From Datisca glomerata (Eukaryota > Streptophyta > Magnoliopsida > Cucurbitales > Datiscaceae), in the NCBI GenBank assembly GCA_003255025.1, contig QANY01013371.1, positions 951,263-1,015,262 on the forward strand: a stretch of DNA of 64,000 bases, written 5' to 3'. Made by a program: the position numbers and the translations under genes. Below are positions 9,943 to 61,373 of the stretch, one piece after another; position 1 is the first letter of the stretch; the number at the start of each line of letters is the position of its first letter. Below the pieces are notes generated by a model. It was not told where the DNA came from. It ran no database searches and saw only the letters and a program-made list of their open reading frames with translations.

Positions 9943-11029
9943 CACCAATTACGTAGTGAAGTTCATTAAATACGTACAAAATAATAATTCTTGGAGGAGT
10001 TCACCAAATATGTAGTGAGGTTCACCGATTACGTAATAAGGTTCACCAAATACATACCAAATAATAATTCTTAGAGGGGTTCACCAAATACATCTAGGGT
10101 TCACCAAATACGTAGTGGGGGTTCACCAATTACATAGTGAACTTCGTGAAATATGTACAAGATAATAATTCTTGGAGGAGTTCACCAAATACGTATTGAG
10201 GTTCACCAATTACGTAGTGGGGTTCACCAAATACGTAAAAAATAAGAATTCTTGGACGGGTTCACCAAATACATACTAGGGTTCATCAAATACGTACTGA
10301 AGTTCACCAATTACGTAGTGAGGTTCATCAAATATGTACAAAATAATATTTCTTAAAGGGGTTCACCAAATACGTACTGGGGTTCACTAATTACGTAGTG
10401 GGGTTCACCAAATATGTACAAAATAAAATTCTTGGAGGGGTTCACCAAATACTTACTGGGATTCACCAATTACGTATCGAGATTCACCATTTACATAGTG
10501 GGGTTCACCAGATACGTGTAAAATAATAATTCTTGGAGGGGTTTACAAATTACGTACTGGAGTTCACTAATTACATACTGGGATTCATCAATTATGTAAT
10601 GTGGTTCACCAAATACGTACAAAATAATAATTCTTGGAGGGGTCCACCAAATACATACAAAATAATAATTCTTGGAGGGGTCCACCAAATACATACTGGG
10701 GTTCACCAATTATGTATTGGGGTTCACCAACTACGTATTGGGGTTCACCAATTACGTATTGGGGTTCACCAATTTCGTACAAGTTAATAATTCTTGAAGG
10801 GGTTCACCAAATACGTAGTGGGGTTCACCAAATATATTTAAAATAATAATTCTTGGAGTGGTTCACCAAATACGTACTGGGGTTCACCAATTATTTACTA
10901 GGATTCATTAATTACGTAGTGGGGTTCACAAAATACATACAACATAATAATTCTTAGAGTGGTTCACCAAATACGTACTAGGGTTCACCAATTACGTACT
11001 AGGGTTCACCAATTACGTACTAGCGTTCA
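9943..11029. repeat. Composite minisatellite, 20/21-bp monomers
   Basis: About 50 tandem units of the form GGGGTTCACCAAATACGTACT, with two main variants (CCAAATACG and CCAATTACG). Every few units one is replaced by a 20-bp spacer, ACAAAATAATAATTCTTGGA. Spacer copies occur at about 9981, 10061, 10162, 10242, 10343, 10423, 10523, 10624, 10662, 10784, 10843 and 10944. Intervals are 80, 101, 80, 101, 80, 100, 101, then 38, 122, 59, 101: multiples of about 20, with a regular 80/101 alternation first. Open frames inside merely echo the repeat (GVHQL-type peptides) and are not called as genes. Confidence 0.93.
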
Positions 11030-12321
11030 GAAAAAATGAATTTTAAATTTTCGTTAACCCCTAAAGAATTTGTTGTACATCACTAAGTATCTGGTGAACA
11101 CCTAAAACCTAATCGTCATACCTACTAAGAGGATCACCTATTTTTAGCTCCTAAACACCATCCTGAAGGTGCAAATCGCATCGTCAAAGACAAGCACTTG
11201 TTTTACGCCTCCAATCGCCTGTTTCACTCTCCAAACGCCATGTATAAATAGGCGATCACCATTCTCCCTCCTAATCATCACATTTTTTGGCTTAATCACC
11301 ATTTATATGGCTCTAATCTCCATTCTTCATAATTTTCCTTAAAATTGATATTTTTGTAATTATTTACTGTACACAAGGAAAATCATTGATAAAAATAGAA
11401 AAACTCATTATTTTAATGCAAACATTCATGATACTCACTTATTATATGAAATTATATTAGATTAATTAAGGATTCCTGAAATAATTGAACACTTAGTCAT
11501 AAACGCGATAAAAGTTATCATTGATAACGTTGTTGTGCTTTTGTAACAAGTATCGGGCAAGACGAGTTTTCACCAAATATAATTATATGTCGTGACGTTA
11601 TGATGGTTGATAAATCTTATTCATCACTTTGACGAACATGTATAGCCCTTAAGTTTGGATTCTACTGTTGAATCGAGCATATCCACTAGAAATTTTGAAA
11701 TTAAATATTGAAATTGAAATTTAACCTTTTATTTTATAATAATAACCCTATAATTTTTGGAAAATAACCCTTTATGTTTTAATTAATTAATCCCTATAAA
11801 TTTAATTCTCAAATCTAACCTTATTTCTTATCAAAATTAACAACATTAAAAAAACCATTCCCCCTTATTCTTAAAAAATCGATACTCACCCTCCCCCCTC
11901 ACTCTCAACACTTAATTTCTCTTTACTTAAACCCTATTCTCCTGCTTCTTCATCTCCATCTTCATCTCTATCTTCATTGCAACACACGAGTCAAACCCTC
12001 AATCTCTCATTGAACACATCCCTTACAACACACGAGATAAAACCCGCCCCAAGCCCGAGCCAAATCCCTCCAACCCACGACCCCAAACCCCATATCCTTC
12101 TAATATTGTATTTTTTTCACCAATAATGGCTAGAGGATAGAATAAAATTACAAAGGGAACATTGAGTGTGATGACGTAACCAAGTTCGAGCTCGAGTGTT
12201 TCGAAAGGGCCGTACGATGCCACCATTTATGGGGTGAAAAGATTTCATCCAAAGAATCGAAATCTTAGTAGCCCTATTCTTCATATTGCTCCAATGGAGC
12301 ATATATCTCACCCAAGCAGGT
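11030..12321. other. AT-rich stretch without a recognised gene
   Basis: Contains GGCG-flanked short motifs around 11170-11260 (ATCGCCT, AACGCC, TAGGCG), AT-rich DNA to 11870, then a pyrimidine-rich tract (11860-12000). No protein similarity was recognised. It may include the left end of the Mutator-like zone, but no terminal inverted repeat was found. Confidence 0.5.
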
Positions 12322-29706: not shown

Positions 29707-30741
29707 CTATCGTGTTGCAGCGGCGACGGCTGCCATGGGGACGGGTGGCACGATGACCGTATCCGACGGCATAATGGTTGCGGTGCGTTGGCCATCGTAG
29801 AGAAAGTTTTCAACGATCATGGTGCTCGGTCCCGCCACGAACTTCTGCCACGCCTCGTCCGACTCTTCGCCTAGCTTCAAGAATGCTTCTGTGGCGTTGA
29901 GGCGGTGCATTTCTTTCGCAACTGGCGACAAGCTAAATTGCCACAAGTTCAGGAGGCGGTGAATCTTTTGCAACTGGCGACAAGCTAAATTACAAGTGTT
30001 TTTCTTGATTTGCGAAATGGCGGTCTCAAGAAACCGATCAAGGGTTTCATCATCGGCGCCACTGAGTTCAGCTCGGAGAAATTCATCGAGTTCAGGTACC
30101 CCAATCGCCTGTCTAATCCCGTGAAAATAATCGGCTTCTGAATCGAACATATTCCGAACCTCGTCCACCATCCCGGCTTTGACCATCCGGTCAACACGGT
30201 CCGTCACGAAAGAGTGGAGTACAGGGAGTGAGACGTCAACCCAAAGGAAGCAACATTCGTAACGGTAACGAAATTGGGCATGATCGTTAATTAGAGCTGC
30301 GATGTGGGAATTGGACCCACCGGCTATGATGGGGAGACGGTCACGCGCCACTATTGAATCTATGGCTAAGGAAGCGTGATGCGTGAAATCATGCACACTG
30401 AAATTTGAATTAGGATCAACGATGCCTAGTAAATGGTGGGGCACCCCAAAACATTCTTCTTCAGTGACTTTATTAGTAACTATGTCGAGGCCTTTGTAGA
30501 CTTGCATTTTATCCGAGTTTATAATCTCCGCTGGGAACTGGGTCGCGAGGTCGATCGCCAGCCGTGATTTTCCTGTCCCGGTTGCCCCCATTACGATTAC
30601 CACCTTGTCTTTCCGGCAAAAGAAAGTCCCCAAGTTGAGATTCCCGGCCTGGAAATTTACCAGCGGTTTTACTTGTTTGGAGGCTGACACGGTGAAACTC
30701 ATGATCGTCATCTGTCCGGCTGACCAGCAAAAACAAGTCAT
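29707..30741 (-). CDS. IPT: Adenylate (ATP/ADP) isopentenyltransferase
   Basis: Transfers the isopentenyl group of DMAPP to the N6 of ATP/ADP, the first committed step of cytokinin synthesis; plant members of this type mostly act in plastids. 344 codons, no intron, no stops, the normal family length. The P-loop GATGTGKS is at residues 52-59. NSDKMQVYKGLDIVTNKV (75-92) holds the catalytic Asp. PHHLLG is at 101-106, IAGGSNSHIAALI at 139-151, and the ADYFHGIRQAIGVPELDEF block at 203-221. The N-terminus is Ser/Lys-containing and could be a transit peptide. Met1, Met11 (MTIMSFTVS) and Met14 are possible starts; Met11 or Met14 looks more typical. Odd: residues 269-275 (FSLSPVA) come from a 21-bp insertion copied from the sequence encoding LACRQLQ nearby. 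It resembles the AtIPT3/IPT5 group rather than tRNA-type IPTs. Probably functional. Confidence 0.93.
   Translation of the reverse strand: MTCFCWSAGQMTIMSFTVSASKQVKPLVNFQAGNLNLGTFFCRKDKVVIVMGATGTGKSRLAIDLATQFPAEIINSDKMQVYKGLDIVTNKVTEEECFGVPHHLLGIVDPNSNFSVHDFTHHASLAIDSIVARDRLPIIAGGSNSHIAALINDHAQFRYRYECCFLWVDVSLPVLHSFVTDRVDRMVKAGMVDEVRNMFDSEADYFHGIRQAIGVPELDEFLRAELSGADDETLDRFLETAISQIKKNTCNLACRQLQKIHRLLNLWQFSLSPVAKEMHRLNATEAFLKLGEESDEAWQKFVAGPSTMIVENFLYDGQRTATIMPSDTVIVPPVPMAAVAAATR
29917..29937 (-). repeat. 21-bp templated insertion in the IPT coding region
   Basis: Plus-strand 29917-29937 (starting CGCAACTGGCGACAAGC) repeats 29969-29989 (TGCAACTGGCGACAAGC) with one mismatch, 52 bp apart. On the coding strand the source encodes LACRQLQ and the copy FSLSPVA, in another phase. 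Related proteins have about 7 residues between KIHRL and HRxDATEVF; this one has 14, so the extra 7 match the 21 bp. Confidence 0.8.
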
Positions 30742-32760: not shown

Positions 32761-33130
32761 GACACTGTTTAGGAGATGGATTTTGATTCGGATCGAGTAC
32801 ATAAATGAAGAGTCGTCTAACATCGAAGAAGTTCTGGGAGCGTGGAGGAAATTATGAGTATTCTCAGTGGTCTAGACAGTGATAACCGTCAGTAAATGCA
32901 CATTCTTGAGGTTTCTAAGGAGGTACTCATCATGGTGTTAGCTATGATGATTTGTTATATGAAACTTAATGAGTGTGTGAGAGAGACAATGCTCAATGGT
33001 AAATATTTGTCTAAATATAAAAATATCTAGTCCCCCTCAATAGGACTGTCATGCCTCTTTATATAGAGAATGAGGGTTTAACCCTATTTTGTGGTGGTCA
33101 ATAAGTGATTGTCAAGTGTATATAGAGACC
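32761..33130 (-). repeat. Left copy of a 370-bp inverted repeat
   Basis: Matches the reverse complement of 38181-38566 over its whole length, at about 80-85% by eye. Shared landmarks: ATTTTGATTCGGAT, AGGTACTCATCATGGTGTTA, ATGCTCAATGGTAAAT and GTCCCCCTCAATAGGA. On the minus strand it contains a TATA box (CTATATAAAGAGG, 33055-33067). It could be a terminal inverted repeat, or an LTR fragment lying opposite to the second copy. Confidence 0.85.
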
Positions 33131-40053: not shown

Positions 40054-40296
40054 TGACAGTGGTCATAATCAATAAGCTGATGTACACATAAGCTTGTCAT
40101 ACAAGTTGATGAGCTAAACCTAATTCAGTTAGCTTTGGTTAACAAAGATTTTATCTTATAATTATCTGTTAGTGAGCTAACCTTTTATGTATATATACTC
40201 AATATAAGTGTAAAGAATATTAACTTCTTGATAATTGAATAAAAGTATTTCTCTGTCTTCTCTCTCTGCATAGTCATCTATTTGCCCCTATTTTCA
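40054..40296 (+). repeat. 5' LTR (243 bp)
   Basis: Begins TGACAGTGGTCATAATC, ends CCTATTTTCA. Very short for copia. It differs from the 3' LTR at many positions, so the insertion is old. Confidence 0.78.
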
Positions 40297-40306
40297 GATT
40301 ATAACT

Positions 40307-44356: not shown

Positions 44357-44606
44357 TGGCACTGTTCATAATCAACCTAGCAAAGTCATCCAACGTAAGC
44401 TTGCTATATAAGTTGATGAGCTAAACCTAATTCAGTTAACTTCAGTTTACTAAGTTGTTATCTTATAATTATTTATTAATGAGCTAATCCTTTATGTAAA
44501 CATACTCACTATAAGTGTAAAGATGATTAACTTTTTGGTAATTAAATACAAGTATTTCTCTATCTTCTCTCTCTCTGTGTAAGTCATCTGTTTGCTTCTA
44601 TTTTCA
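44357..44606 (+). repeat. 3' LTR (250 bp)
   Basis: Begins TGGCACTGTTCATAATC, ends CTATTTTCA. It runs directly into the hairpin, with which it shares its last bases. Confidence 0.78.
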
Positions 44607-44768
44607 TATTATAAGTACAATGTAAGCATAGAGAGAACACTCATCTACTGACTATATCATTGATATCTTTTGCACACAACTAAATACTTGGTTGTGAAAA
44701 AGATATCAAAGATATAGTCAGTAGGTGAGTGTTCTCTTCAAGCTTACATTGTACTTATAATATGAAAA
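44601..44768. repeat. Long hairpin (about 80-bp arms)
   Basis: The left arm starts TTTTCATATTATAAGTACAA and the right arm ends with its complement, with only about five mismatches. The arms include AGAGAACACTCA and CTACTGACTATATC. The loop is only a few bases. A third partial copy of the inner arm, TTGATATCTTTTGCACACA, follows at about 44792-44810 in direct orientation. It lies between two copia elements. Confidence 0.88.
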
Positions 44769-46560: not shown

Positions 46561-47039
46561 GACAGTTGCTCATGTGATTAACAGACTTCCCTAACCCAAG
46601 TTAGGGTTTGTTTCACATTTTGAGAAACTGTGTTGTTATAAACCTGCAGTTAGTCACTTTCGCGTCTTCGGTTGTATGTGCTACGTGTTTGTGCCAAGTC
46701 ATCTATGTAGCAAGTTTGATAAGAAGGCAATATAGTGTATCTTTGTAGGATACGATAACCAAAGGAAATGGTGGAAGAGTTACCGGATTTGATGGAAATA
46801 GAAGACAATTTACAAAGAAGATTGAGGAGCCAGTTGTTGATATACAATAAACTTCAGAAGTGGCTGAAGAAGAACCAAGCAAAGAAGATAATATTGAGGA
46901 TGAGACAACACAGAGTCCCTGACAAACAGGAGTGCATCGAAGAGCAACAGGCAATGTGAATGATAGGCAACTAGAAGCAGCAAGTCCAGAGCTTTGAAGA
47001 TCAACAAGAATACAAAAACTGAATCCCAAGTATCCAAAC

Positions 47040-47561
47040 ACCGCAATAGCTAAAGAAGAAAGCTTCAGAGAACCAAATATATATGAAGAGGCGTATCAGA
47101 GCACCAAGTGGTTAGAATCCATTGATAAAGAGATAAATGCTCCAATGAAGAATCAAACTTGGGAGTTGGTGCCAAAGCCAAGGGGAGTGAAACCCATATC
47201 GTGCAAATGGGTTTACAAGGTGAAAACTCTTCCAAATGGAACAATTGAGAGATATAATGCTCGACTAGTAGCTCGAGGATTCTCTCAACAATATGGGCTA
47301 GATTATGATGAGACATTTAGCCTGATTGCCAAGATCACAACAGTTTGGACCCTGCTAGTAGTCACAGCAAGAAAAGACTCGAGACTATAGCATATGGATG
47401 TGAAGAATGCCTTTCTACATGGAGAACTAGATCGGGAAATATATATGGTCCAATCCAAGAGGGTTCGAGGATAAATCTCATCTTGACTATGTATGTAAAC
47501 TGAGAAAGACACTCTATGGATTGAAGCTGACCCCAAGAGCATGGTATGGTAAGATTACTGA
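47040..47561 (+). pseudogene. copia reverse transcriptase, first half
   Basis: Reads NTAIAKEESFREP, then MKNQTWELVPKPRGVKPISC, KWVYKVKTLPNGTIERYNAR, LVARGFSQQYGLDYDETFSL (47145-47390), a stop in place of Gln after DSRL, MDVKNAFLHGELDREIYMV, and LRKTLYGLKLTPRAWYGKIT up to the CACTA insertion at 47562. This is the fingers and palm part of copia RT including the first catalytic Asp (MDVKNAF). The other half resumes at 52156. Confidence 0.88.
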
Positions 47562-47839
47562 CACTACTACAAATATGGGCTTTAATGACAGCATGGTAAT
47601 GGTTGTGATGACATGTCTCTTAAACCTGTCATTGAAAAATAGGTGTGGAAATGGTTTTTTTTTACTTTTTGATATTATGACAGGTTTTAAATAACATGTC
47701 ATCCTATACTTACCTATAATGACAGGCAATTCTTAAATCTATCCAAAACTATTAACTCTTTTAATTCAATTATTTTTACTTTCTCATTATTACCAAAATG
47801 CCATCTGATAACCCTAATCTAAACCAATTTCCACAGCCT

Positions 47840-48200
47840 CTCCCTCAACTCCATCTCTCTCTCTCTCTCTCTCAAAAATAAAAAAACAAGGGTTATTGAT
47901 CAGCTTCTTTCGAGATCGTCAGCACAACCATCGGTAGAGACCCCCGAGTTGGGGTTGTGTTTTGGTCATGACAACCATCGAGGAACAGAGAGCTGGGGTT
48001 GCGAGCTTCATCCCCACAACCACTGAAGAGCGGATCTAGGTTCACAATCGTGGTCGCCACAACCACCAAGCTAAGATTCTGAAGAAGAGAGATAGGGTTG
48101 AGAGCCTCATTACTAGAGCCGTCGAGCTAGGGTCCTAAAGAACAAAGAGCTAGGGTCATGAGTCTTGTCATCACATCCATCGAGCTAGGGTCTCAAAGAA
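47840..48200. repeat. Degenerate tandem units ahead of the captured gene
   Basis: After a (CT)n tract at about 47853-47872, three to four copies of a 60-75-bp unit share AACAGAGAGCTGGGGTT/AAAGAGCTAGGGT and (C/T)CACAACCA(C/T)C. They run up to the presumed first QPT exon. Possibly the 5' UTR or promoter of the captured gene, or subterminal CACTA repeats. Confidence 0.55.
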
Positions 48201-48363
48201 CAGAGGTAAGAGTTTCATTCTCAAATTCTTCTCTGATTTGAGTGATTGTCTGATTTGGTGACTTTTGAGTTTTTCTGATTCTATTAGGATTTGTGTTCTC
48301 AATTTCTGGACATGGGTCTGCTCCAATTCATTTGCTCTTGTTGAGCCTCTTACTGTTGCCGCC

Positions 48364-50939
48364 ATGACAGTGAATCCGTTGAGTCCCTTACTGTTGAGGT
48401 AGGCAAGTGATCTTGGAACATCTTTTGCGTCCATGATAGTGAAGCCGCCCTCGCATCCTACCTATGATTTAAAAGGCATAATCAAGTTAGCACTTGAAGA
48501 GGACTCTGCCAGTATTGGTATAGATTCTGTCACACTTGTTAATGATGCATTTATATTGATCACATGTATAACATATATGCTTAGAGCAATATATCTACTT
48601 CGTTGATAGTTGATGTGACATCCATGGCCAATATTCCATCCGACATGGAGGTAGAAGCACATTTTCTAGCAAAGGAGGATGGTGTTGCTGCTGGTATCAA
48701 CCTTGCAGAAATGGTATTTCATGATATTGATCCTTCCCTCAAAGTACCAAGATTGTTTGTTGTTTGCAAGGAATTGTTTGTACAGTTTGTATTCTTGCTC
48801 ATTTTGTGCACATCTGAATATCAGGTCCAATGGAACTGGAAGGATGGAGATTATGTTAACAAGGGACTAGAGTTTGGAACAATTTCTGGTAAATACAAGT
48901 ATCTTTGATTAGTATTTGTAGAATTAAATGGGTAACTGTACCAATAATCATGTGCAGGGCGAGCAAAAAATATAGTTCTGGTTGAAAGAGTAATGCTAAA
49001 TTTTATACAGAGAATGAGTGGAATAGAAACTCTGACAAAGGTATTCATGTATCAATTTAAAATTTTGAATTTAATCAAGAAATTAGTGTTATGATCCACC
49101 ACCTGGAGCATTTTTTTTTACGTGCATTAATTCATTTCATTGAACACGTATTATGATGGGTGGATCCATTTGGAAGGATAATCTGGATCCATTTGGAAGG
49201 ATAATCTATTACATCTCCATAAATAGATGTTGATGGCCAAGAATTTTGATTCTCATGGAGGTCAGAGTTGAGACTGCTGCTATTTATATGAGAGCCTAGT
49301 GTCCTATTGTTAAAGTTGGGGATAACTTACATTTCTAGAATGCTTATCATATATGTCATAAATCATAACTTGCTTCAAGGACGTGCACTTTTATAATAAT
49401 GATTTACAAGGTTAAAATTCATTTAAAATGTTTGATTAACACTCATGATTTGTTACAAAGGAGATTTCCTATCTCATGTGTCTCCTCATACATGTATATT
49501 ATTTGGTAGAGCTGGTGAAGACATTTTGAGTTATTTTCTAGCTTGGATTATAAGTCTTAATTATGAAGACCTCTTGAATGATCTTCTTTAGCTCAGTGTT
49601 TTTAACCATTAGTTTGATTATCTAGATAGAGAGAAATAAGAAATTTTGAAGATTCCTTTGAAGTGTAGGAAAATAATTGGAATAGAACTAAATTTCAAGT
49701 CGTTATTTGGGTGTCAACTACTAAAGATTTCAATTCAATCTCTTTTTTTCTAATTCATCAGGATTTCTAACCTTTTTGTATAGGTAACTATATTTTTTAG
49801 AGTCCCGTTACATTTCATATCCTTTATTAGTTTTCTTGTATCTCCTTTTTGTCAATACAAATTCCAGTTTCGTATAGACAAAATGTTGTATGATGGAGAG
49901 AGATATTACATAAAGTTTCTTGACCTTTTTTTAAACAATGAACTTAAATTTTTAACCATATTATTCATAAAAAAATATCTAATGAAATCTATTGTTAGAT
50001 GTGTGAGGGAGAGATTTATGACATGCATCATTTTGCAGGCAATGGCAGATGCTGAACGCCCTGCATATATTCTGGAAACTAGAAAAACTGCTCTAGGTTT
50101 ACACTGGTGGATAAATGGGCGGTGTATATCACATCCTTGATTATATTTTCAGTGATATATTCTTCCTACTTTTTCCCACAAAATTTAACTGAACTAGTAC
50201 TTTTTAGGTATTGATTGGAGGAGGTCAGAATCACAAATTGAGTTTGTTTGATATGGTACAGATAAAAGACAATCATATATCAATAGCAGGAGGCATCACA
50301 AATGCTCTTAAATCAGTTGACTCGTATCTAGAACAAAGAAACCTTAAACTGGATGTTGAGGTAGTAACCTCAACCTTTAAGGGTTATTTTGCATCTTTTC
50401 TTCCTTTATTTTTTGTTTAAAATTTTCTTATGTTTATGTTAATAAATTTGTGGACAAAACCATACTTTTATTGTCCAACTCAAGAAACTTTTGTTGCCAA
50501 ATTTAAATTACCTTTTAGTATATATATTTTGTAGTTTATCTTGCCATGCTATTTAAGTTTGTTAATTGTTTTATTACTCTCTGCGTGTGTGTGCGTATAC
50601 GCGTGCTCATGTGTACTTGTCCAATCTTCTCCTATTTATTGTGTAAGTATGTCTTGCATTCTATTAGATGAACTCTTGCACTGAGCTTGTTTTCTTAATT
50701 CATTAGAGGATCTCACATCAGAAACCATTCATTTTGGTTGGTAAATTTTTGTTCTTGTGCAGGTTGAAACCAGAACATTTGAAGAAATAAAAGACGTATT
50801 GGATTATGCTTCCAAAACAAAGACTTATTTGACTCGAATAATGTTGGATAATATGGCAGTACCATTACCAAATGGCGATGTTGACATATCCATGCTTAAA
50901 GAAGCTATGGAAATGACCAATGGGAGGTTTGAAACCGAT
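48364..50939 (+). pseudogene. QPT: Captured quinolinate phosphoribosyltransferase (QPT), 3'-truncated
   Basis: QPT converts quinolinate and PRPP to nicotinate mononucleotide in NAD synthesis. Exons by eye: about 48364-48510 ([20 protein letters not shown]), about 48602-48743 ([20 protein letters not shown]), 48825-48888 ([19 protein letters not shown]), 48958-49040 (NIVLVERVMLNFIQRMSG), 50039-50121 (RPAYILETRKTALGL), 50208-50360 ([22 protein letters not shown]), 50763-50939 ([40 protein letters not shown]). GT-AG introns are kept, so genomic DNA was captured, not mRNA. Defects: exon 2 is short of bases at GDRGDV; a 1-bp loss in exon 5 destroys GLRLVDKWAV; RKTAPG reads RKTALG; the last exon block (SGNVTLETV to the end) is missing. 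Inside the CACTA element; probably non-functional. Confidence 0.9.
49163..49208. repeat. Short tandem duplication in a captured QPT intron
   Basis: TGGATCCATTTGGAAGGATA followed by ATC occurs twice in a row. Confidence 0.85.
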
Positions 50940-51276
50940 GTACTAATTTTTCAGTTTGAATTACCTTTCAACTATTGCTTTGGGAGTTTGGCTAAAAAAT
51001 GAATAAGATCATATTTGGTTAGCCTCTTTATCCTTCATTATATCCATCATGATGAGTAATTATTTCCAGCTTTTTTATCTTCTTACTGATACGAAAATAA
51101 TTTTCATTTTATGTACTAATACTTGAATGTTCTACTGGCTTATCAAGATTGTAGGATTTGTCCTTCCCTTCACTGTAAATCTATTTTAAGTACTAAGATT
51201 GCTCATGTTATCTAAACACTTTTCTTTTGTATAGCTTGAAGTGTGATAGATTATCTTTGATTTCATCTTCTTTTAG

Positions 51277-51366
51277 GCTACTTAGCTCACCAACATGTCG
51301 GTTCTTGACTCGTTAGGGAAGAAACTATCCTTTGAGATTGCAGTTGGATTAAACGGCCGTGTCTGG
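51277..51366 (+). pseudogene. RRP40: Captured exosome subunit RRP40 exon fragment
   Basis: RRP40 is a cap subunit of the RNA exosome. This 90-bp exon-like piece follows an acceptor (TTCTTTTAG) and ends before a donor (GTATTT). It reads SVLDSLGKKLSFEIAVGL then NGRVW, matching the region of plant RRP40 that begins the KH-type part. A TAG interrupts the first residues (AT, stop, LTNM). It lies 340 bp after the last QPT exon on the same strand, so QPT lost its end and gained a piece of a second gene. No other RRP40 exon was recognised nearby. Confidence 0.72.
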
Positions 51367-51729
51367 GTATTTTTCTTATGATCATCAAATTCTTTGTGTC
51401 TGGTTTTACATTATATTCTGTAACTGGTATCCTTTTCAGATGATAAGGCTTGTACATTTGTAGGAACAACAACATACGGACCTTCAGAAGTCTTCAACTG
51501 ATCTCCTGTAACTTTCAGGTGAGGATTCTTCTCTTGATGAATAAACATCACTTTAACGATAAAGATGCAAAGAGCCTAATGTACTTTTTATTTTCCTTTC
51601 CCCTTGCTTGCTTGTCTGATGAATTTTATAGTTTTTTATTTTTGATGTTCAATAACCAATTTTGCTATTCGTAATTGTTTAAAACAGGAATGGGCTATGG
51701 GCTCTTGTACATAAAACTACAATTGATGT

Positions 51730-51732
51730 TTT

Positions 51733-51769
<37 letters not shown>

Positions 51770-51825
51770 CTACAATTGATGTTTTACTTTATATATATAT
51801 ATAATATAACTCCTATTATATGTAT
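51730..51825. repeat. (TA)n with a flanking tandem duplication
   Basis: ACTACAATTGATGTTTTACT plus a TA run occurs twice in succession (starting about 51717 and 51769), with different TA lengths. Confidence 0.88.
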
Positions 51826-52155
51826 ATTCTTATAAACTACTTCAAATAACAACATTGCCTGTGCCTTCACCCAGTAATGAAAGAAGCTGCCATGAAAAGG
51901 CTAGCCTTTCCATGACAGTTTTTTAAAATAATTCGGCTATTAAATGATGGAAATCCCCTTCATCTAATTGCTTTTTGCGGTAACTTATGTTGACGGGGAT
52001 TCCCCGACAACTAACTGGATTTCACGGCCGGCCTATATTGACAATTTTTTTCAATACTTGAGATGTCACCTGGGTATATGACAGTCGTATCCCTATCATT
52101 AATGGGTTTTGATGACGGGTTTTCACCGTCATCTAAGCCCCATTTTGTAGTAGTG

Positions 52156-53080
52156 TGAGTTCTTAGTGGACAGTGGATATGTCATGGTGCATGAGGATTC
52201 AAGCTTATACGTTAAGGTAAAATAAGCAAAAATCGCGGTTGTACTGGTATATGTGGATGATCTCATCATCACAAATGATGTTGAATTACAAATTTGTCAA
52301 ATGAAGGAGAACTTATTTGTTCGCTTTCAATTGAAGGAGCTTGGAGAATTGAAACACTTCCTCGGATTAGAAGTTAATCAAACTAAGGAAGGTTTATTTC
52401 TCTGACAATAAAAGTACGTAAAGGACTTATTGTAAAGGTTCAGAATGGTTGAGTGCAAGCCCATTTCAACACCTATGGAAGTCAATGCCAAGTTATATGC
52501 TCATGAAGGCAAGAATTTACAAGATGGGGCAATGTATCGATAACTAGTTGGTAGTCTGATTTACCTAACATTAACTCGACCAAATATTTCACATGCAGTT
52601 GGCATAGTGAGTCGATATATGCAACATCCCAAAAAACATCATTTGGAAATAGTACGACGAATATTGAGGTACGTTAAAGATACTATTGACTATGGTCTCT
52701 TATATAAGAAAGGTGATGTGTTTAAGATAGCTGGATATTACGATGCTAGTTATATTGGAGATCATGATGCCCGTTGATCAACAACTGAATATGTGTTCAA
52801 GCTTGGATCTGGAGTTGTATCTTGGTATAGCAAAAGTCAACCGGTGTCCTTATCAACCACGAAAGTAGAGTATAAAGTAGCATCAATGGCATCTTAGGAG
52901 AGTATATGGCTAATGCAACTGATGAAGGACCTACATCAGTCTGCTATTCCTCTAGCAGATAATCTAGTTTTCCATGCCCAAACGAAGCATGTGGAGATGC
53001 ATTATCAGGAACTGGAGATGCACCAAGTGAAGAGTGAAGATCAAATAGCAGTCTTGTTCACTTAAGTACTCAACACTACA
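52156..53080 (+). pseudogene. copia reverse transcriptase, second half, and RNase H
   Basis: Continues the RT interrupted at 47561. With the target duplication counted once, GKIT is followed in the same frame by EFLVDSGYVMVHEDSSLYVK. Then come [16 protein letters not shown] (active site YVDD intact, about 52237-52284), [35 protein letters not shown], and RNase H with VSLSTTKVEYKVASMAS (the usual AEY Glu is present as VEY) and LADNLVFHAQTKHVEMHY. Stops occur at about 52230, 52405, 52543, 52777 and 52897, with a final tail near 53060. Not functional. Confidence 0.88.
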
Positions 53081-53562: not shown

Positions 53563-55810
53563 TATTTCAAAGAAGGGTAAAACCTAGATTAACAAAAAAG
53601 TAGAAAAGCTCTCAACTGAGATACGTCACAATAAACCACCCCAGCAGCATATAGCTAACAAAGAATCAACGAGCAAGGAGGGAGAGCAGACACCAATCCT
53701 GCACTCAAGTTCAAGTTCCGAACGCAACCATAAGCTAAGTTAAGTTCAATCATAGCAACTCCATATTCAATTCTCAGCCAGTTCAGCTCTAAACTGGTAA
53801 GATCAACATGTTCATTAAGCACAAATTCTACAATAGGCCTAAAATAGCTGTTGGACGAAAAAGACCAGGTCTAACTAGCGTGGTCTCTAGGTTGGGTGCT
53901 AATAAATTTGAAAGCTCATGGATCAAGTTAACAAATTAAAATTTTAACAATCAAATCAACAGTAAATACAAACTTTACAGGTCTAATAATTTCTCTCATC
54001 GATGGTGGAGTTCTTATTTTCAAACTTTAGACGATACAGATCTATATGAAGCACTAGTTAATTAAGGTCAAATTCAACTTTGAAACAACATATATGTTGA
54101 TATCATACCATGAAAGCCGTTGAAACATTTTCTCATTTGGATTCATTCATCTCCACTTAATCTCAATTATGTTGTAAAATAATTAATTTTGACTAATCGA
54201 AAGCCCAAATTTAGCACTCAAATGGACCACACGTGCTACCCGATTCGCAATCATTAGGAACTTACAACAATAATTAACATTATCTAGAAGTTAGAATAAT
54301 CTCTAGCTAGTACCCAACTTGTCACATAATTTATCAAAATAAATTGTACTGTAAATGAATGTCAAACTTAAACCTCTGATCTTGATATAATAAATGAAGT
54401 TGGGCATAGAGATTAGAGTTATTTTACACATCTATAATTGAGCGTATGGAGTTCTATAATGAAATAATGGGCATCGATCTAGTGTGAGTGAAGAGGAAAA
54501 GGTGCTTTATTTTCATACAAATTTTCAAATGGTTGTGGCACTAGAATTTAAATATGATGATAGGTAAACAGAAAGTTCTCTCCACAAATCCAAGCTTTTT
54601 GTTTCTTTGGCTCTTGGTGGCCAAATCCCTTTGTTGGCTTCCATTTTATTGAATATTCAAACTCATCAACACACAAAACTAATCATATCATGGATTTTTA
54701 TTGGGATGTTCAATCATATTAATTATATCTACCATTTCATATCAGCATTTAGGTGTGCTCTCTCTTTTCTTTTCTAACATCCCTAGTACTCTATTTATTG
54801 ATATCAAATTAATGTGAGTTATACAAAGAGAAAAACTCTATGTAGTACTGCAATATTGATATAATTGTGAATTGACAGTAAGTTTAGTCTCACCTCAGAT
54901 TGTGATAATAATCAAAATATAAATAAAATAAAATTTGAATGTGAGATATATGTAATCTCCGGTCAGAAGATTTCTGATACTGATCCTGGAGTATTGAGTT
55001 TTCTTCATATTATAGATAAGAGTCTAGTTATTCTTTTTTCTTCAAAATATAAATAAAAATTATATTTTGAGACATGTAGTAGAAAATTAATGAAAAAAGT
55101 ACTAAAAATTTATCCAACTGATACCATAATCACGTACATTATCAAACTGTGTTTGTGTCGATCAAATGAAAATATATGAGAGAAGATACAAATATGGACT
55201 TTCACCTCCACCAAAGCACTATATTTGTAAGTTGATTTCAAGCATAGTTTGTGTCTTTTGAGGAATCACACTCAAGAGAAATGATATAAGACTATAGCAA
55301 GGCAATCATGAGAAGGGTGATGATGATATAAGTCAATACAATTCAGGGAAGAAAAGGAAATATGTTTATTTTTTATTGTTAAAAGGAGCCAAACCGCGTG
55401 CTATACCTAATATGAAATATCAATGAGATATTAAATATATATAGTACACATTATAAATAAATGAATAAATGAAAAGCTTTATAGAGATGCATACTGACAT
55501 ATCCATGTTAATTTAATCAAGGGTTTATAATAATGGCCTTCACTCTTGAAGAAATACTTTCCTTTGTGATTCCAAAAATAGACCCCATCTTCTTCCATTC
55601 AGTGCATTCATCCGAAATTCCATTGAATTCCACAATTAAAATTATTTTTTTTAGCTAATATAAAAACATTAGACATTAAGAATCAAGAAACCAGTTACAC
55701 TGTGTCTATATTTGGCTGATTTACAACGCTATTTCGGTCATCTCTCAATTAAGTTAATGAGTCAAACAAAAAAAGAGAATTTGAATTTTATGCAAAACGA
55801 AAAAAAAAAG
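53563..55810. other. AT-rich intergenic stretch, no gene recognised
   Basis: No open frame with similarity and no transposon ends seen on either strand. Base composition is typical of the surrounding non-coding DNA. Confidence 0.55.
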
Positions 55811-56707
55811 AATCTTCTTAAGTGGTTTTGTTTATGCTTTGTCAACATTATCAAAACCTTTATTCCGAATCATGGTTGAAAACTAACCATATTAAAAAGG
55901 GAATATACAGGCGCACGGGTACACACAAATATATACGAATTGTTGATTCGAAAATTATGCCCGCATCTACTGTCGAGATTATCACCACGCATTGCTTAAT
56001 CATTTATTCAAGAATCTGTAAAAAGCAAGAACGATCGTGAAAACAGTAGGCGGGTACCGAGATAGTGTCCCGCCTACTACACTTCGATGATCAAGTCAGT
56101 AGAGTGCTTACAGTATAATAGCAGTAAGGAGAATTGCTTCCGTTTAAATAGGGGGTCATCATATATTTATAATGATTATGTATCATTCAATCATCCCAGT
56201 TCAATGTATTTCCTCCTTATTCTTATAAGGAATGAAGGTATTTATGGAGAATATTCCCAAAAGCATGATATTTCAGTGATGATCGTATCTTCTTTAACAA
56301 CATTGAGATTGCCTCATAGATGTGTTGTGTAGTTCTCATTTCCTTGTATGACTAACTATTACATTTTTGTCGTGTCAAAGAATTGATCTCGGCTATCTCG
56401 AGTACCCGCGGTCGCAACATGGGAGGACCTCGGTCATCCATGTGACCTCGGTAGTGTGAGCATAGGTGGGGATACGTCCATCGCACTGGTCATGACATCA
56501 GTCGTGGAGGGGACCTCGGTCATCATGGTGACCTCAATCATGGAAGAGTCATCACCCATCATTGTGGCCTTGGTCCTAGTAGGGTTGGTCCATGGTAAAA
56601 CGTCCCTAATTTAGACTTAATATAGGCCCTCCCCTGGAGTAGGAGTATTGGGCCTTGCTTGGAAGTGTTATTAAGTGGATTTTAGCCTGAGTGTTTTTTC
56701 TCCCTTA
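55811..56707. repeat. Direct repeat R1 (about 897 bp)
   Basis: Matches 60477-61373 in direct orientation over its whole length. Shared landmarks: AATCTTCTTAAGTGGTTTTG at the start, AACCTTTATTCC, AAAAAGGGA, TATGTATCATTCAATCATCC, GACCTCGGTCATCATGGTGA, TCCTAGTAGGGTTGGTCCA and TTTTTCTCCCTTA at the end. It could be an LTR, but it lacks TG/CA ends and a PBS. Confidence 0.85.
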
Positions 56708-59240: not shown

Positions 59241-60476
59241 TTTTTATACTTGTGACCATCTTGAAGTTACAGGTTCCTGAATGTCTTTTAGGTTTTTTAT
59301 CCGGATATCTCGTGTATGAGTTTCTGTGTAATCTGTGACATCTAGAGTCTTGATTATGCTTGCTCTCTCATGGGAGCATTTTTCTGCTTTAAGTGCATTA
59401 ATATATTCCTAGGGGATTCACTATACTTTTGATTTCTAGTTTTCAATCCCATGTTGAGCGTTCCCAAGCAACTCATAGGCCTCGTGCTAAGGTGTTGTAG
59501 TGATATAATTCAAAGATTTTGAGACTTATATCCCATTTCTTATCAGGGGCTCAGACTTAACATTATGTTAAATTAAAATGCTCTTTAAATATCCTTTAGA
59601 AGAATTGTACGACTGAGTATGAACAATAAATAACGTACCTCAAATTCTTAATAGAGATCAACGATGTGACTCTCGAATTTGAGAGAGTATAAAAATTCCA
59701 AAATAATACAGGTTCGAGCTATGTGGTCCGAGTCTAAATCCTAAAACTTGCTCTTTTTTGAGATGCTGAACAATATTGATGGAAATAACTACCTTATTCT
59801 CCTGACATTAAGAACTCATCCAACAATGCAAATTAATCGAGGGGAATTGTGTAAATTAATTTTAGAGAAGTAATAAAATATATAAATAATACACAAATAA
59901 ATCTTCCCTCAAACGGTGTTTTCGTTCGAATTCTAAAGAAAATAATTGCCTCATTTTCATTACTGTATGGGTGTGGTCGTAGACACTGATGCTAGTGCAT
60001 AGGAGCTATCTTCATAGTACGTACTTCTTGTTAGGCGTGCACATATGGTCTGCAAGGCACGAACGTTGGGCTATGAAACTTAGCTCTCTTATCAGGAGTG
60101 AGCTGCGCATGGGCTACTTTAGCGAGGACTTGGACCATCTAAAGCGCTAAGGCCCCTGCATAAAAGCTTAGGATACGCGGGTCACGCTGGGGCGCGGGTC
60201 ACGCATTCACTTTTTAAGTCATCTTCATTGAGCGTGTGTGGGCCTTCATCTATTCTCTGTAGCCCACTACAACGATCTCTTTTGGGATCCTTTCATGGGG
60301 CACGAGTTGGAGCTCTTGTGGGCTCCTAGCATGGACCGACTAGTTATGGACCGGGTAGGTCAACCCAGCAAGATGGAAGCGAATAAGTAAGGAGGACCAC
60401 CGCAGGTGAGCGCGTGGAGCGCATGAGACCATGTCCAGTGACCATTGATGATCGTAAATGGCTTTAAACGGCCAAA
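59241..60476. other. Interior of the R1-R2 segment, right part
   Basis: No gene recognised. 60000-60460 is richer in GC, with GCGCGGGTCACGC-type motifs in two copies. Confidence 0.5.
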
Positions 60477-61373
60477 AATCTTCTTAAGTGGTTTTGTTTA
60501 TGCTTTGTTAACATTATCAAAACCTTTATTCCACGAATAATGGTTGAAAATTAGTGCATATTAAAAAGGGAGTATACACGTGCGTGCATACAAACACATA
60601 AATATATACGTATAGTTGATGCAAAAAATCTACTCACATAGTGTCGAGATGACCACCACGCATCATCCGGTGATTCATCTAAGGATCTGTAAAAATCAAG
60701 AACGATCATGAAAGTAATAGACACGACACCGAGGTGATGCCCCATCTACTATACTCCGATGATCAAATCAGTAGAGTGTTTATGGTATATTAGCAGTAAA
60801 GAGCATTGCTTACTTTTTAAATGGGGGTGATCATATATTTCTAATGATTTATGTATCATTCAATCATCCTAATTCAATATATCTTCCTCCTTATTCCTAT
60901 GAGGAATGTATATATCTATGGAAAATATTTCCCAAATTAGGATATTTCTGTTATGATTTTAAGCTCTTTAACAACCTTAGATTGCCTTATAGAGGTGTTG
61001 TATCGTTATCATTTCCTTGTATGACTGATTATCATATTTTTATGATGTCGAAGAATGGAACTCAGTTATCTCGAGCAACTGTTTGTAGGCATGGGAGGAC
61101 CTCAGTCATCCATGTGACCTCAATAGTGTGAGCATATGTAGGGATACGTCCATCATCTGGCCTTGGCATCGATCCTGGAGGGGACCTCGGTCATCATGGT
61201 GACCTCAGACATGGAAGAGTCATTGGCCATCATTATGGCCGTGGTCCTAGTAGGGTTGGTCCAGGGTACAGGGTTCCTAGTTTGGACTTAATGTGGGCTT
61301 TCCCTTAGTAGTATTGGGCCTTTCTTGGAAATCTTGTTAAGTGGATTTTAGCCTGTGTGGTTTTTCTCCCTTA
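60477..61373. repeat. Direct repeat R2 (about 897 bp)
   Basis: Second copy of R1, clearly diverged (many substitutions and small indels). R1 and R2 enclose 3.77 kb that contains both tandem arrays. Confidence 0.85.

Follow-up and report, generated by a model that had tools for sequence, protein, structure and literature searches.

A Datisca glomerata CACTA element with QPT and RRP40 gene pieces, probably a Pack-CACTA, nested in a copia reverse transcriptase

In a 64-kb stretch of Datisca glomerata DNA (contig QANY01013371.1; hereafter the window, whose numbering we use throughout) we found a 4594-bp non-autonomous CACTA element at positions 47562-52155, which is very probably a Pack-CACTA carrying pieces of two unrelated host genes, those for quinolinate phosphoribosyltransferase (QPT) and the exosome subunit RRP40, nested in a copia-type reverse transcriptase (RT). 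An initial annotation of this DNA had proposed the same interpretation, which is now supported by the ends of the element, its target-site duplication, its cargo and the lack of a detected transposase.

Ends, target site and interrupted reverse transcriptase

The element starts CACTACTACAAATATGGGC and finishes GCCCCATTTTGTAGTAGTG, and is flanked on either side by the trinucleotide TGA (47559-47561 and 52156-52158). Both ends carry CACTACTACAAA, with which the left terminal inverted repeat begins (47562-47589, + strand); the right one (52128-52155, - strand) finishes with TTTTGTAGTAGTG. Aligned without gaps the two ends agree at 23/28 bases, and better when gaps are allowed, as expected of terminal repeats in the CACTA superfamily; the repeat finder returned them as a 33-base inverted pair (82% complementary) that included a few flanking bases. 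As a control we collected all CACTA/TAGTG pairs in the window that lay 300-20,000 bases apart and had identical 3-base flanks. The window holds 48 CACTA and 84 TAGTG strings, and among the 15 pairs that passed, the element's own pair ranked best, with 17/20 terminal bases matched (the runner-up had 14/20). The CACTA termini, coordinates and TGA duplication are as first proposed for the element. The duplication is limited to the 3 bp TGA, as further bases differ and no 5-nt duplication is present; 3 bp is the length given for CACTA target duplications in a passage of PMC8978399.

Clustered subterminal repeats, another hallmark of the CACTA superfamily, were found at both ends. Counting both strands, the motif TGAC[AG] occurs six times in the first 220 bp (left subterminal region, 47562-47781, + strand; shuffle mean 0.58) and seven times in the last 280 bp (right subterminal region, 51876-52155, + strand; shuffle mean 0.70), and neither count was reached in any of 1000 dinucleotide shuffles, which bears out the subterminal repeats noted earlier. 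There was no enrichment in the middle of the element (48300-51500), where 9 occurrences compare with a mean of 10.5. The stricter motif ATGACA gave the same picture on the left (n=6; 0/1000 shuffles as high) and a weaker one on the right (n=2, equalled by 11/1000 shuffles).

A Pfam scan of all 29 open reading frames (ORFs) of at least 48 aa that overlap the element identified no transposase domain, in agreement with the initial annotation and, at that size, with what is expected of a Pack-TYPE element. Above cut-off the scan gave QRPTase_N, QRPTase_C and, in an ORF that begins within the copia flank, RVT_2; below it were P-II (E-value 0.086), Ribosomal_S2 (0.13), PSY3 (0.047) and a further piece of QRPTase_N (0.00017).

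The element lies in a resident copia RT that is now decayed. Its 5' part (46998-47561, + strand) matches the RVT_2 profile of copia-type RTs in two frames, positions 1-75 of the profile in the ORF at 46998-47390 and positions 99-152 in the ORF at 47431-47694. The 3' part (52156-53056, + strand, the end being approximate) continues the RT and RNase H, with several stops; these domains were named from the translation, without a profile search. When the flanks are joined over a single TGA, the local frame gives LYGLKLTPRAWYGKITEFLVDSGYVMVHEDSSLYVKVK, passes one stop and then reads on, with additional stops further downstream of the insertion site. The initial annotation had the RT continuing in the same frame on the two sides, which is correct for the local frame over this empty site, but the RT as a whole is broken, already upstream of the insertion site, where an in-frame stop ends the ORF at 46998-47390 and the frame changes. 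We looked among the repeats of the window for a pair of long terminal repeats (LTRs) bounding the interrupted copia copy, and none spans it.

Two other pairs of direct repeats lie in this part of the window. One, of ~220 bp (40086-40304 and 44393-44614, 84% identical, 4.3 kb apart), probably represents the LTRs of a separate retrotransposon just upstream of the interrupted copia copy, and the other, of ~900 bp (55808-56707 and 60474-61373, 80.6% identical, 4.7 kb from start to start), is probably the LTR pair of another old element downstream.

QPT and RRP40 pieces

Residues 12-275 of the 329-residue Vitis QPT align colinearly with the + strand of the element, over seven exons (48409-50939) separated by six introns, all of which have GT-AG borders as placed. 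These exons are E1 (48409-48517), E2 (48610-48743), E3 (48825-48888), E4 (48958-49040), E5 (50039-50121, with a one-base deletion, directly after the residues LGL, that shifts the frame), E6 (50208-50360) and E7 (50763-50939), the last of which stops at Vitis residue 275 and keeps its donor GT. The 5' limit of E1 was set by hand and is uncertain, because the alignment of the Populus protein extends, beyond an interruption, as far back as 48361. Pfam recognized both QPT domains in the hand-spliced pieces (QRPTase_N, 4.9e-22; QRPTase_C, 3e-18) and, with lower significance, in the unspliced ORFs (7.4e-12 and 6.1e-14, respectively). The best 120 of 7601 QPT homologues all span the whole query, the top match being that of Vitis with 74% identity. 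Domains and plant homologues thus agree on the multi-exon QPT piece that had been recognized at the outset. Searches of the element for the N-terminal (transit-peptide) part and for the C-terminal exons of QPT gave scores at shuffle level. We rejected a retrocopy origin of this cargo: six introns are present, and therefore it would have been captured as DNA.

Downstream of E7 is an interval (50940-51118, + strand) that begins as a QPT intron, is then unassigned, and contains the junction between the two cargoes, which lie ~180 bp apart on the same strand. The clearer of the RRP40 matches, R2 (51277-51366, + strand), reads LLSSPTC and then, in a different frame, VLDSLGKKLSFEIAVGLNGRVW, with a one-base deletion following SPTC between the two parts. 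It encodes RRP40 sequence of the KH domain (Pfam KH_6, 2.6e-9 for the hand-spliced piece) and is 91 to 96% identical over 23 residues to four plant RRP40s. A weak match upstream of R2 prompted a test with a consensus of the 15 residues that precede LLSSPTC in 114 of 120 listed RRP40 homologues, the other six having been dropped as lacking LLSSPTC or being too short. This consensus matched ILECSTGLSRL at 51119 with a score of 35, which was reached in 0/500 shuffles (maximum 27) and in 0/140 forward-strand segments of the first 47 kb of the window. The matched piece, R1 (51119-51150, + strand, ILECSTGLSR), has an intact donor GT, being followed directly by GTAGGA, and its splice phase fits R2.

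The element therefore contains two exon pieces of RRP40 and the intron between them, and the initial annotation, which was right about the presence of RRP40 sequence (Pfam and homologues agree on it), had recognized just one. Most of the length of the gene is missing, and in the element downstream of R2 a search for the next or last RRP40 exon gave scores at shuffle level. Host gene fragments of this kind, from QPT and RRP40, are the cargo by which Pack-CACTA and Pack-TYPE elements are defined. The remainder of the element consists of a 5' internal region (47782-48408, + strand), where a CT microsatellite and imperfect direct repeats of 58 bp occur and no Pfam domain above cut-off was found among the ORFs within or overlapping it, and of a stretch with a TA-repeat (51367-51875, + strand), in which the next RRP40 exon was undetectable.

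Source and decay of the cargo

The shared strand and close spacing of the two fragments would fit their capture in a single event, from a locus where QPT is close to RRP40, a source that we consider improbable. In a comparison by eye, and not an exhaustive one, of the two 120-row homologue lists, QPT and RRP40 are probably on one chromosome in Glycine max, Stephania cephalantha, Lotus japonicus, Prosopis cineraria, Senna tora and Morella rubra, for each of which the longest contig has an identical length on both rows. However, gene numbers on the two rows place them far apart in Glycine max (02G201000 and 02G106500, numbers from two different annotations) and in Stephania (023000 and 021313), these being the two of the six species with numbers on both rows, with gaps of hundreds to more than 1000. 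In Populus trichocarpa the genes are on different chromosomes (008G and 12G), and they are likewise separated, by chromosome or contig, in Cinnamomum, Carya, Durio, Telopea, Quillaja and Tripterygium. Moreover, the last QPT exons, which would be expected between the fragments if the genes were neighbours, are undetectable. Since other plants show QPT and RRP40 distant or on separate chromosomes, it is more likely that the fragments came from two loci.

Expression of the element as a functional chimeric gene is very unlikely. In its favour, the splice sites are canonical as placed, the QPT exons are free of stops except through the E5 deletion, and Tgm-Express1 of soybean, with five host fragments, yields spliced chimeric transcripts according to passages of PMC1947982. 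Yet the E5 deletion closes the frame ~150 residues after the first ATG of E1, R2 carries a deletion of its own, and splicing of E7 to R2 gives FETDAT*, the stop following two residues of R2, so that no in-frame fusion can be read. We rejected a fused QPT-RRP40 protein on this account, the reading frames being incompatible as the sequence stands.

Conserved residues are altered as well. We defined near-invariant columns as those with the same residue in at least 118 of the best-scoring 120 of 7601 QPTs, a sample that favours a conservative set, and the element's QPT departed at 13/118 of them, including an R to K change within GGGRNHR. When each of the 120 QPTs was held out in turn, there were at most 4 such changes (median 0). 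In a tree of 121 QPTs the element copy had the longest terminal branch (0.248, as compared with a median of 0.028); it was placed beside a group that includes the Benincasa and Cucurbita QPTs (support 0.846), a placement we do not trust, as the branches are long. Because of the 13 changed positions and the longest branch we regard the QPT copy as a pseudogene; with its frame shift in E5 and no detectable C-terminal part it is not a functional QPT, and the cargo as a whole most likely has no protein function. The description of the two genes as captured and joined is thus accurate in that their pieces lie side by side, but these are decayed pseudogene pieces and not a fused coding sequence.

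Such a pseudogenic cargo could also be an old segmental duplication or a QPT pseudogene flanked by CACTA-like strings by chance, which we consider extremely improbable because the copia RT breaks exactly at the termini, with TGA on both sides, TGAC[AG] is concentrated near the two ends with no excess between them, and the copia frame can be read through the empty site.

A Pack-CACTA nested in the copia RT accounts for these observations as follows. CACTA ends flanking host DNA would earlier have moved together, enclosing as genomic cargo the exons and introns of the QPT piece together with a short stretch of RRP40, comprising two exon pieces and an intron. A candidate route is tandem insertion followed by aberrant excision of neighbouring elements, as proposed for Pack-CACTA capture in passages of PMC13317346 and PMC8903248. 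An autonomous CACTA relative would have provided the transposase in trans. The element inserted into the resident copia RT, duplicating TGA, and its cargo probably decayed later, so that at most it would give rise to aberrant or small RNA.

Several points weigh against this account. The direction of capture, its breakpoints and its age are inferred, because no parental host QPT or RRP40 entered the comparison, and short transposase exons could have been missed because ORFs of less than 48 aa were not scanned. In a passage of PMC8903248, 5-nt duplications are given for CACTA elements of rice and maize, whereas at this element only 3 bp match. The element is known as a single copy, from the 64-kb window alone, where CACTACTAC and GTAGTAGTG are each found once on the + strand, at its ends. 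Finally, the regions at 47782-48408 and 51367-51875 remain unassigned.

As a case of exon shuffling by CACTA the element is clean and well bounded: its two ends can be read, and so can the duplicated target, the copia frame that it interrupts and the introns of the captured gene. The particular combination of QPT and RRP40 seems to be a chance outcome of capture, and the decayed state of the cargo shows that here, at least, it never became a gene. There is a slight chance that transcribed cargo yields small RNAs acting in trans on intact host QPT or RRP40; if so, NAD synthesis or the RNA exosome would be tied to a transposon, and the element, by carrying part of an exosome-subunit gene, could affect how its own RNA decays.

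Neighbouring features and known systems

Elsewhere in the window, an uninterrupted 344-aa ORF on the - strand (29707-30741), probably a host gene, resembles plant adenylate isopentenyltransferase (IPT, cytokinin synthesis), with ~68% identity over at least 90% of the query to the best named relatives among the 120 matches listed, none of which is near-identical. In a tree from which the three rows of at least 420 aa were dropped, this IPT was placed beside Prunus and Pyrus (support 0.913). We trust neither this placement nor that of the QPT copy, because the two trees disagree and the branches are long. The window also contains a complex tandem array (9943-11038) built on a ~21-base unit of the GTTCACCAAATACGTA type, with higher-order periods of 80, 101 and 181 bases, and a ~370-bp inverted pair (32765-33127 and 38562-38183, 82% identical, ~5 kb apart).

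The QPT-RRP40 pair was unreported in the literature we found on QPT, CACTA and gene capture, which does not establish its absence from print. Gene capture by CACTA elements is itself known in plants, as the initial annotation noted, from soybean, maize and Chenopodium (passages of PMC1947982, PMC8903248 and PMC8978399). At 5.7 kb the soybean CACTA element Tgm-Express1 is comparable in size, and it likewise carries fragments of unrelated host genes with exons and introns; it has five fragments, lies in intron 2 of F3H and has known chimeric transcripts (PMC1947982, in part), whereas the Datisca element has two and lies in a copia RT. The Pack-CACTA elements described from Arabidopsis, rice and maize share with the latter CACTA ends, host coding fragments and the lack of a transposase, and in maize Pack-TYPE elements often hold more than one locus, those of the Pack-CACTA type holding the most loci; as described in passages of PMC8903248, however, these were defined from clusters of copies, with singletons removed, and from genes in the same genome that were hit by Blast, while the Datisca element is known from a single copy. 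The CACTA-like elements of Chenopodium also carry a host gene fragment, but theirs are located upstream of a conserved "TAD" domain of their own (PMC8978399, in part), and no such domain was found in the Datisca element. The element thus belongs to a documented class, in which CACTA elements carry pieces from several loci of the host, and differs from the known members of that class in its cargo.

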